Assembly (NCBI RefSeq): GCF_008040165.1
Contig: NZ_VRUR01000001.1
Span: 1-64,000, forward strand
From: Flagellimonas hymeniacidonis
GTDB lineage: Bacteria; Bacteroidota; Bacteroidia; Flavobacteriales; Flavobacteriaceae
Reading direction: 5' to 3'
DNA length: 64,000 nt
A program made the position numbers and the translations under genes. Positions 26,237-44,190 of the stretch are shown here, one piece after another. The stretch's first letter is position 1; each line of letters starts with the position of its first letter. A model generated the notes under the pieces. It saw only the letters and a program-made list of their open reading frames with translations. It had not been told where the DNA came from and searched no databases.

Positions 26237-26312
26237 TGTTTTTAGTTAAAATGAAAGTGTGTCAATTGGAAGCAACACAGCTTTATATATGTAACAGCTC
26301 TTTTTTTAGATT

Positions 26313-26377
26313 TCAGAATTCAGATGTGAGATTTAAGACAACTCTTTTTAATATCAAATCTAACATCTTACGTCTCA
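26313..26377 (-). repeat. imperfect inverted repeat between nusG and rplK
   Basis: Left arm 26313-26334 (tcagaattcagatgtgagat and two more bases) and right arm 26356-26377 pair in 17 of 22 positions, with 12 of 13 next to the 21-nt loop. The right end (26356-26381) matches 18 of 26 bases with the right end of the S23 cassette in the trp operon (43161-43186). On the minus strand the right arm also contains TAGATTTG with a TTTG 23 bp upstream (26389-26386), a weak internal promoter candidate for rplK. Confidence 0.55.
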
Positions 26378-26384
26378 CTTCTTA

Positions 26385-26942
26385 TCAAACTTTTTCTACT
26401 TGCATATAGCTGAGTTCCAATGGTGTTTTTCTTCCGAAAATTTTTACCATTACCTCAAGCTTACGCTTTTCTTCATTGATTTTCTCAACGGTTCCATTGA
26501 ATCCGTTGAAAGGACCATCAATAACTTTTACAGTTTCACCAAGTACGAAAGGAATGGCAACATTATCTGTGTTCACAGCCAACTCATCCACTTTTCCTAA
26601 CATACGGTTCACCTCTGATTTCCTTAAAGGAACAGGGTCACCGCCTTTGGTTTCACCCAAGAAGCCAATTACATTGGTAATGGAACGGATGATGTGAATC
26701 ATCTCTCCTCCCAAATTGGCTTTTATCATTATATATCCCGGAAAGTAAACGCGCTCTTTGTTTATTTTCTTTCCGTTACGTATTTGTACTACTTTTTCTG
26801 TTGGAACAAGAACATCTTCAAGGTAATCTGCAAAACCATTACGCTCTACCTCACTTTCAATATAGCCTTTGATTTTATTCTCTTGGCCACTTACAGCTCT
26901 TACTACATACCATTTTTTCTCCAGAACCTCAGACATATCCAA
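26385..26942 (-). CDS. nusG: transcription antitermination/termination protein NusG
   Basis: A 185-residue protein with the NGN domain (KKWYVVRAVSGQENKIKGYI) and a C-terminal KOW domain (VIDGPFNGFNGTVEKINEEK). It links RNA polymerase to Rho or the ribosome. The ATG at 26942 directly abuts the secE stop; a second ATG two codons later (MSEVLEKK) is an equally plausible start. Confidence 0.97.
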   Translation of the reverse strand: MDMSEVLEKKWYVVRAVSGQENKIKGYIESEVERNGFADYLEDVLVPTEKVVQIRNGKKINKERVYFPGYIMIKANLGGEMIHIIRSITNVIGFLGETKGGDPVPLRKSEVNRMLGKVDELAVNTDNVAIPFVLGETVKVIDGPFNGFNGTVEKINEEKRKLEVMVKIFGRKTPLELSYMQVEKV

Positions 26943-42203: not shown

Positions 42204-42773
42204 ATGGGAAGAAAGATTTTAATGATTGACAATTACGATAGTTTCACTTATAATTTAGTGCACTATCTTGAGGATTTAGATTGCGATGTTACGGTAAAGC
42301 GTAACGACCAATTGACTTTGGAGGAGGTTGAAGCTTTTGACGAAATTGTCCTGTCTCCCGGTCCTGGAATTCCGGATGAAGCGGGATTACTAAAAGAAAT
42401 TATCAAAACCTATGCGCCCACAAAACGGATTCTTGGGGTCTGTTTGGGGCAACAGGCCATTGGTGAGGTTTTTGGTGGGACGCTGGTCAACCTTGATCAA
42501 GTCTATCATGGAATTGCTACCGCCATAACGGTTACCAAAGAAGATGTCATTTTTGAGGGTATGCCAAATACAATTGAAGTGGGTCGTTATCATTCTTGGG
42601 TAGTGCATCCAGATTTACCGGAAAGTTTAGAAGCTACCTCCATAGATGAAAATGGACAAATAATGTCCCTAAAACATAAAACATATGATGTAACTGCAGT
42701 CCAGTTTCATCCGGAATCTGTATTGACCCCGCAAGGAAAACAAATGCTAAAAAATTGGCTAAATAGAGTATAG
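42204..42773 (+). CDS. trpG: anthranilate synthase component II (glutamine amidotransferase)
   Basis: A 189-residue class I amidotransferase. It has the IDNYDSFTYNL entry, the nucleophile motif GVCLGQQAIGE and the His-Glu pair in VQFHPESVLT. It supplies ammonia to TrpE. The stop codon TAG overlaps by one base the left inverted repeat of the inserted S23 cassette. Confidence 0.96.
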   Translation: MGRKILMIDNYDSFTYNLVHYLEDLDCDVTVKRNDQLTLEEVEAFDEIVLSPGPGIPDEAGLLKEIIKTYAPTKRILGVCLGQQAIGEVFGGTLVNLDQVYHGIATAITVTKEDVIFEGMPNTIEVGRYHSWVVHPDLPESLEATSIDENGQIMSLKHKTYDVTAVQFHPESVLTPQGKQMLKNWLNRV

Positions 42774-43179
42774 ATATTAGGCATTAGATTTTAGATTTTA
42801 GATTTTAAATAATGAATAATTACAAAGAACTTATTGTGTGGCAAAAATCAATAGCGTTGACAGAATTGGTTTATAAAATGACCTCTTGTTTTCCTAATGA
42901 AGAGAAGTATGGCCTAACAAACCAAATTAGAAGAAGTGCTGTTTCAATTGCTTCAAATATTGCAGAAGGAGCGGGAAGAAATTCTAAAAAGGAGTTTAGA
43001 AATTTTCTTGGAATTGCCAATGGTTCTTTGAACGAATTAAATACACAACTAGAAATATCAAAAAGATTAGAGCTTATTGATAAGAATGAACTTGATGAGG
43101 TTTCAATGCTAAGTGATGAAATTCAAAAAATGATTTACACGCTTATCAAAAAATTTGCTCAAATCTAAATACTAATATC
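42773..43179 (+). mobile_element. IVS-like cassette: inverted repeats around an S23 gene
   Basis: The left end gatattaggcattagattt (42773-42791) and the right end aaatctaaatactaatatc (43161-43179) are reverse complements in 16 of 19 positions (8 + 8 matches around a 3-base block). The left end continues into three tandem agatttt heptamers (42786-42806). Between them is one S23-type gene. In 23S rRNA intervening sequences, S23 genes are likewise enclosed by complementary ends that form a stem in the RNA. The unit spans about 407 bp and breaks the otherwise gap-free trp operon. Mobility is inferred, not seen. Confidence 0.6.
42812..43168 (+). CDS. four-helix bundle protein (23S rRNA-intervening-sequence/S23 family)
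   Basis: A 118-residue protein with the S23 signature: LIVWQKSIALTELVYKMTSC, EKYGLTNQIRRSAVSIASNI, AEGAGR and a helical C-terminus. The family was named for genes in intervening sequences of 23S rRNA and is related to the Avd protein of diversity-generating retroelements; members form pentameric helical barrels. It has no role in tryptophan synthesis. It occupies the trpG-trpD junction inside inverted repeats. Function unknown. Confidence 0.9.
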   Translation: MNNYKELIVWQKSIALTELVYKMTSCFPNEEKYGLTNQIRRSAVSIASNIAEGAGRNSKKEFRNFLGIANGSLNELNTQLEISKRLELIDKNELDEVSMLSDEIQKMIYTLIKKFAQI

Positions 43180-43194
43180 TCATATCCAATAAAT

Positions 43195-44190
43195 ATGAAA
43201 GAGACTCTCAATAGACTCATCAATCACGAAATCCTATCAAAAGGCGATGCCAAGCAAATCTTGGTTAACATCGCCAAGGGTGATTACAATACATCTCAAA
43301 TTGCGGCTTTCTTGACCGTTTATATGATGCGAAGCATCACTATTGAAGAACTGGAAGGTTTTAGAGATGCGCTTTTAGAACTTTGTTTGGCTGTAGATTT
43401 ATCTGACTATAATCCCATAGATTTATGTGGTACAGGAGGTGATGGTAAGGATACCTTCAACATATCGACATTGGCATCTTTTGTCACTGCCGGAGCCGGT
43501 ATAAAAGTGACCAAACACGGAAACTATGGTGTTTCGTCCAAATGCGGTAGTAGCAATGTCATGGAGTTTTTGGGCATCAAATTCAGCAATGAAGCTGACT
43601 TTCTTAAAAAATCTATTGATGAAGCTGGAATATGTGTTTTGCACGCTCCCCTATTTCATCCTGCCATGAAAAATGTAGCACCAATCCGAAGAGAACTTGC
43701 CGTCAAGACCTTTTTCAATATGTTGGGGCCAATGGTAAACCCGGCATTTCCAAAAAATCAGATGGTTGGTGTATTCAATTTAGAACTGGCCAGAATGTAT
43801 GGATACCTCTATCAAAACACCGATAAAAATTTCACTGTGCTCCATGCATTAGATGGTTATGATGAAATTTCTTTGACAGGCGCAACAAAAACCATTTCCA
43901 ATGGTTCCGAAGGAATGCTCACCCCTTCCGACTTTGGAGTTCAACGTATTTTGCAAGAAGAGATTACCGGAGGAGAAGATGTAGCACAATCCGCTCAAAT
44001 ATTTCTGGATATTTTAAACGGACGAGGAACCGAGGCTCAAAATAATGTGGTTTGTGCCAATGCGGGAATTGCGATTTCGACGGTGGAAGGGACAACACCA
44101 AAAGAAGGTTTTGAAAAAGCTAAAGAATCGCTTCTAAACAAAAAAGGATTGGGAGCATTAAAAAAATTACAAGAGATAAGTGCATCATGA
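43195..44190 (+). CDS. trpD: anthranilate phosphoribosyltransferase
   Basis: A 331-residue enzyme that joins anthranilate with PRPP. Glycine-rich DLCGTGGDGKDTFNIST, KHGNYGVSSKCGSSN and HPAMKNVAPIRRELAVKTFF are conserved motifs. The start lies 26 bp after the S23 gene and 15 bp after the right inverted repeat. It overlaps trpC by 4 bp (ATGA). Confidence 0.96.
   Translation: MKETLNRLINHEILSKGDAKQILVNIAKGDYNTSQIAAFLTVYMMRSITIEELEGFRDALLELCLAVDLSDYNPIDLCGTGGDGKDTFNISTLASFVTAGAGIKVTKHGNYGVSSKCGSSNVMEFLGIKFSNEADFLKKSIDEAGICVLHAPLFHPAMKNVAPIRRELAVKTFFNMLGPMVNPAFPKNQMVGVFNLELARMYGYLYQNTDKNFTVLHALDGYDEISLTGATKTISNGSEGMLTPSDFGVQRILQEEITGGEDVAQSAQIFLDILNGRGTEAQNNVVCANAGIAISTVEGTTPKEGFEKAKESLLNKKGLGALKKLQEISAS

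Follow-up and report, generated by a model that had tools for sequence, protein, structure and literature searches.

Proteins of the S23 family have, to our knowledge, no known function, and heptamer repeats, such as the STRR sequences of cyanobacteria, have been reported repeatedly from groups unrelated to one another, as far as we know with no cause given. In the intervening sequence (IVS) of the Coxiella 23S rRNA, as it has been described, an S23 gene lies between complementary ends within a total of ∼430 nt and is preceded, just before its start codon, by tandem heptamers whose number varies (PMC4990558). The TAACTGA repeats reported from Beggiatoaceae, Cyanobacteria, and some Bacteroidetes are mostly in the forward orientation and located just before start codons, with one reversed set directly downstream of a stop codon; some relatives are reported to carry shorter, repeat-free spacers (PMC4679880). 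The P6b stem of the Nostoc trnL intron consists of complementary arms made of seven-base repeats, TDNGATT and NNTGAGT, whose classes are described as repeatedly replaced and whose origin is given as unknown (PMC4476775). In the window analyzed here, i.e., the whole stretch of 64,000 nt at the start of contig NZ_VRUR01000001.1 of Flagellimonas hymeniacidonis, an S23 gene enclosed by heptamer arrays occupies the junction between trpG and trpD.

The gene (positions 42812 to 43168, forward strand) codes for a protein of 118 aa with a predicted four-helix-bundle fold, which scores 141.2 bits against PF05635 (cut-off, 33.8) and 139.6 bits against TIGR02436 (cut-off, 24), in agreement with the initial annotation; profile searches matched this protein to no family besides PF05635 and its kin. 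A related four-helix-bundle family, the Avd proteins of diversity-generating retroelements, gives a weak match, its NF033474 profile scoring 32.8 against a cut-off of 80. On the left, trpG (42204 to 42773, forward strand) runs into a degenerate nnnTnAG array (42763 to 42808, forward strand) with six TAG triplets at exact 7-nt steps (G at 42766, 42773, 42780, 42787, 42794, and 42801) and TAA in the seventh unit; the trpG stop codon (42771 to 42773) is the second unit. On the right, an array of four CTnAnnn heptamers (43165 to 43194, forward strand), with the C of CT or CC at 43165, 43172, 43179, and 43186, contains the S23 stop codon in its first unit and ends at the ATG of trpD (43195 to 44190, forward strand), which retains its start codon. 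Because the stop codons of both trpG and S23 fall within array units, the element is better drawn as 42763 to 43194; its left end, initially placed on the final nucleotide of the trpG stop codon, had to be moved ∼10 bases to the left, where the TAG series starts at ∼42763. The ends are indeed reverse complementary as had been claimed, with GATATTAGGCATTAGATTT (42773 to 42791) agreeing with the reverse complement of 43161 to 43179 in 16 of 19 positions, and a repeat search of the window found at the unit ends a 23-nt inverted pair that is 83% complementary. What goes beyond chance is the period-7 array together with the family-wide match of arm to arm. The left array, with its peak at 42776, has the top lag-7 score in the 64-kb window; of the intergenic peaks at this lag listed over 464 kb of the genome, a single CTGAACT array outscores it.

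As in the Coxiella rRNA IVS, at least as described in the cited account, the trp unit combines an S23 gene with complementary ends, which are strong family-wide and weak in the window copy alone, and with tandem heptamers ahead of the S23 start codon, in this case the six TAG at 7-nt steps. In contrast to that IVS, it sits outside the 23S rRNA gene, in the mRNA junction between trpG and trpD, and the arms of such operon units vary by site, show no sign of selection at the RNA level, and have gene-less relatives in the same genomes. The tandem 7-base repeats between genes, with their CTnAnnn-like unit, are also those of TAACTGA and STRR elements: rotated, TAACTGA reads CTGATAA and fits CTnAnnn. 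The main text describing the TAACTGA repeats contains no occurrence of S23, and besides one inverted repeat no partner arm was noted in this account (PMC4679880). Both motifs published for Nostoc P6b are compatible with nnnTnAG; unlike the trp arrays, they lie within an intron stem, and no mention of an S23 gene was noted in the account of that stem (PMC4476775). Finally, the unit has the terminal inverted repeats of transposons and MITEs, and it resembles REP and MITE hairpins, which are likewise short inverted repeats found between genes in many copies, but differs from them in its period-7 arms, in that no target duplication is seen, and in being unlinked to Y1 transposases after correction for S23.

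Period-7 flanks are the rule of S23 genes. The 218 S23 open reading frames (ORFs) collected from 204 loci yielded 192 whose start and flanks were usable, of which 189 were distinct loci: 89 from the genus (71 genomes), 26 from the class, and 74 from a wide set of named contigs that are mostly from Bacteroidota and also include Clostridia, Acidobacteria, Planctomycetes, candidate phyla, and others (locus L010 and the broken copy L009 are absent from some counts; the class name Bacteroidia and gene names such as fadA, hemB, metF, nusG, and rplK are what we take them to be from our own reading). In all three sets and on both flanks of the S23 gene, the lag-7 ratio is 1.26 to 1.43, compared with 0.97 for a control set of 367 other genes of this genome; the flanks are periodic at 7, 14, and 21, and otherwise only at lag 1, apart from a minor shoulder at lags 8 and 15 in the genus set. 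A clear lag-7 segment, mostly of 3 to 5 units, is present in 109 left and 108 right arms. The two arms of a locus also match each other better than they match arms of other loci, with median scores of 22 versus 14 in the genus, 29.5 versus 14 in the class, and 27.5 versus 14 in the wide set, and 101 loci score above the 95% point of the mismatched-arm scores; for the control genes, the medians are 15 and 15, and 13 of 367 lie above that point. Across the 189 loci, both arms share the consensus CTnAnnn, which reads nnnTnAG on the left. The heptamer itself varies from site to site and is not common to the sites of one genome (score of 11.0 for another site in the same genome, 12.0 when neither genome nor site is shared, and 24.5 for the same site). 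Of the 189 S23 loci, 47 contain four T.AG units at a spacing of 7; when spacings of 5 to 9 were compared over 464 kb of this genome, this motif matched at spacing 7 alone (17 matches).

Genomes with more S23 genes also have more such arrays. From the class, 247 genomes were searched for the fourfold T.AG motif at spacing 7 and, as a control, at spacing 6, and their S23 genes and Y1 transposases were counted as well; spacing 6 was chosen because the alternative control, the backward pattern, likewise has a period of 7 and correlates with S23 too (0.69). S23 matches were found in 192 of these genomes, in 188 of them above the curated cut-off. The period-7 arrays correlate with S23 copies at a rho of 0.68, or 0.58 (p = 2e-23) given genome size, whereas the period-6 control, likewise given size, yields 0.08 (p = 0.2). 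Median numbers of spacing-7 matches in genomes with 0, 1 to 2, 3 to 5, 6 to 9, and at least 10 S23 genes are 0, 1, 8.5, 23, and 37.5, respectively, and 42 of the 55 S23-free genomes have no arrays. With both period-7 motifs summed, S23 holders have the higher counts in 19 of the 21 families that comprise both kinds of genomes (equal in 1, lower in 1), a contrast reached in none of 20,000 permutations. The association is weaker within the genus, with a rho of 0.38 (p = 9e-4) when both motifs are summed and 0.33 (p = 0.005) when T.AG alone is counted; G009, an S23-free member, has no arrays. Eight genomes with S23 loci were picked from the wide set, and all of them hold arrays (690 matches in one cyanobacterium). 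With the motifs again summed, the Y1 transposase domain PF01797 shows a partial correlation with the arrays of 0.008 given S23 and genome size, S23 shows one of 0.62 given Y1 and size, and PF01797 is missing from the genome studied here. Since an S23 match was found within 1.5 kb of 3 of the 30 array loci that were fetched, most of these arrays are gene-less.

Because array number tracks S23 number across these genomes, S23 proteins likely spread or maintain the arrays. On balance, we favor the reading that the S23 gene and the heptamer arrays form one unit, in which the S23 protein is predicted to recognize the period-7 arrays and, acting in trans, to promote their spread or maintenance at operon junctions. 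The S23 protein of Xanthomonas is described as a toroidal homopentamer (PMC4990558, citing Lin 2006), and the solved structures 2gsc and 2rld, homologous by sequence, have five chains each. If each subunit of a pentamer ring held one 7-nt step of the array, the period would be accounted for. The gene-less hairpins could be non-autonomous partners of the S23 units, and the DNA may be cut by a host enzyme. Insertion in the sense orientation, behind one stop codon and ahead of the following ATG, would be least harmful and would let the unit be transcribed. As later correction of the arms is not seen, they may become complementary when the unit is made, e.g., if a fold-back intermediate allows one arm to be copied into the other.

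In the relatives, the unit is a discrete entity that is present or absent at the same junctions. Among 68 trpG-trpD junctions from 67 genomes of the genus, S23 units occupy three (this genome, G013, and G028), and gene-less heptamer hairpins of 64 to 176 bp occupy 18. Clean junctions, whose existence in close relatives had been proposed as the check for insertion, number 11: trpG extends 20 nt into trpD in seven of them and 4 nt in one, and the genes are spaced 8 to 17 bp apart in three. The remaining 36 junctions carry an unrelated REP-like double hairpin (CATTCCTGC..GCAGGAATCC..) or a short remnant (e.g., L012, L021, L024, L043, and L058). At the fadA junction, surveyed in 69 genomes, 24 S23 units of 423 to 446 bp were found alongside 32 gene-less spacers of 40 to 86 bp and 11 clean junctions, including the one in this genome; two more genomes (G067 and G035) carry inserts of 545 and 601 bp (L334 and L348) that contain unrelated open frames. 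The counts of trp hairpins, REP-like or remnant junctions, and gene-less fadA spacers were made by eye, with one spacer re-filed. S23 units at the junctions of relatives measure about 405 to 445 bp, and units of this kind were seen at 13 to 14 junctions of the genus in all. The 4-bp overlaps that the initial annotation had noted among the downstream trp genes are confirmed at the four junctions downstream of trpD; trpG-trpD is not the sole loose junction, as it had been called, since similar units reside at about 13 other operon junctions of the genus and a gene-less hairpin with arms of the same kind lies between nusG and rplK in the window itself (26304 to 26392, reverse strand). In the S23 tree, which is based on a short alignment with 55 of 113 inner branches well supported, the fadA site comprises three separate clades, one of which is sister to the trp-site clade (support, 97/89), and another is intermixed with the junction directly behind fadA. 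Thus, one S23 lineage occupies different junctions and different lineages occupy one junction. Two near-identical trp units, L011 and L014, differ by 14 nt, i.e., two heptamers, in the left arm.

Several observations weigh against the view that S23 proteins spread these arrays. The S23 copies that share a site mostly form one clade, so that movement of S23 must be rare, and comparison with the clean trp and fadA junctions revealed no target duplication, although a very short one could be hidden by the A+T-rich ends. The inverted repeat in the window, taken alone, is at the level of chance: its score was equaled in 388 of 2,000 dinucleotide shuffles with 100-nt flanks and in 269 to 905 of 4,000 short-window shuffles, depending on the scoring scheme, and the match of 16 of 19 positions is ordinary in DNA this rich in A+T. 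On each side, ∼80 of the 189 arms have no clear lag-7 segment, and 88 loci stay within the 95% point of mismatched arms. Array counts are counts of windows, in which long arrays are counted repeatedly. The genomes examined outside the class were all S23 bearers. Four S23-free genomes (G236, G187, G128, and G192) hold 11 to 28 two-motif matches (28 in G236 and 15 in G187), and G024, from the genus, has nine T.AG matches and no S23; loss of S23 or the action of another factor is a candidate explanation for G236 and G187. In any case, correlation is not causation, and S23 could simply ride with the arrays.

The initial annotation had described the locus as an IVS-like unit acting at the level of RNA: the ends would pair in the trp transcript, RNase III would cut the stem, and the S23 message would be separated from trpG and trpD, which would stay on the trp mRNA. 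The discrete insert and the IVS anatomy (S23 gene, complementary ends, and heptamers) have held up, while the role assigned to the ends in RNA now appears unlikely. It would fit the preference for operons in the sense orientation, as both neighbors are codirectional in 83 of 89 genus, 21 of 26 class, and 60 of 74 wide-set loci, compared with 222 of 390 genes of this genome, and it would fit the stronger folding of the gene-less spacers relative to mononucleotide shuffles (z < -2 in 27 of 30 distinct spacers at fadA and 19 of 30 at trp). Ends kept for pairing as RNA would not, however, be expected to lack a preference for G.U over A.C among imperfect arm pairs, and the arm-arm alignments, obtained for 150 of the 189 loci, contain 100 G.U versus 162 A.C pairs (52 versus 74 in the mismatched-arm control, with 90 of 189 loci aligned). 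Nor is coevolution of the arms within sites detectable, with own arms being better than same-site arms of other genomes in 44 of 74 cases (p = 0.11); the 14 of 17 obtained for fadA alone is confounded by the three clades at this site. The stem of the window copy is itself weak, and none of the 80 wide-set S23 loci had an rRNA match at the Rfam gathering score, so that rRNA is not the usual location of S23. Given that neither a G.U preference nor a later correction of the arms was detected, their complementarity seems to date from the making of the unit, with RNA pairing perhaps a side effect. Cutting of the unit's transcript by RNase III is possible. Duplex energies calculated over 150-nt flanks were dropped because coding sequence dominated the signal.

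Regulation of the downstream genes offers another explanation, which we consider improbable. S23 rings would bind the heptamer arrays in mRNA, much as the protein TRAP binds repeated triplets, and adjust downstream expression, and the arrays would have spread by being useful and not by being mobile. The correlation of array copy number with S23 is as expected under such a scheme, and so are the toroidal shape of the Xanthomonas protein reported in PMC4990558 and the fact that arrays can stop right at start codons, both in the trp unit and in the TAACTGA repeats as described (PMC4679880). Against it stand the patchy occurrence at a given junction among close relatives, some of which have a clean junction or an unrelated insert there, and the genes found at the sites, which in our reading have no evident common function. 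It is very unlikely that the gene-less hairpins are scars of decayed S23 units, with S23 as cargo moved by something else, even though a broken S23 copy (L009) exists, S23 and gene-less forms occupy the same junctions, and five heptamer-type gene-less trp spacers of 117 to 176 bp exceed bare hairpins in length, since no fadA spacer falls between 86 and 423 bp, the gene-less fadA spacers mostly differ, by eye, in their heptamer from the S23 units there, and Y1 transposase adds nothing.

Recognition and spread of the arrays by S23, the preferred reading, would give a job to a family that has none so far. The S23-array link itself provides S23 with a testable partner, supplies a candidate factor for the heptamer repeats, and joins the rRNA IVS with insertions in mRNA operons; it also illustrates how inserts of 40 to 450 bp come to lie at operon junctions with the genes unbroken. 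Apart from the heptamers of the Coxiella IVS, no general link between S23 and heptamers was found in the open-licence literature, nor was a paper there that joins the rRNA IVS, TAACTGA, and trnL P6b repeats. A tentative and rather more doubtful extension is that all of these represent a class of mobile DNA that spans phyla and has no transposase, in which a ring-shaped four-helix-bundle protein would act on period-7 inverted arrays; it would comprise autonomous S23 units and far commoner, dependent gene-less hairpins, with the rRNA IVS, TAACTGA repeats, trnL P6b repeats, and cyanobacterial heptamers as one family.

A few further observations concern individual loci and genomes. TnAG arrays might have provided stop codons in all three frames, a proposal that was rejected, as 41% of the left arms had this property compared with 37 ± 4% for permuted columns. 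One S23 copy of this genome, L009 (G000:C2:1718576-1718893), is interrupted by an in-frame TAG, and ∼14 CTGAACT repeats at G000:C1 ∼459193 to 459295 (L328) have codirectional genes on either side and no adjacent S23. In G045 (C1:43420-44099; L079), trpD is in pieces with stop codons. TnAG arrays of spacing 6 are common in G182 (108 matches), G218 (83 matches), G244, and G108, the first two of which also carry S23 and period-7 arrays. A very long TAAGGGT array of more than 50 heptamers is located at G001:C19:102138-102519.
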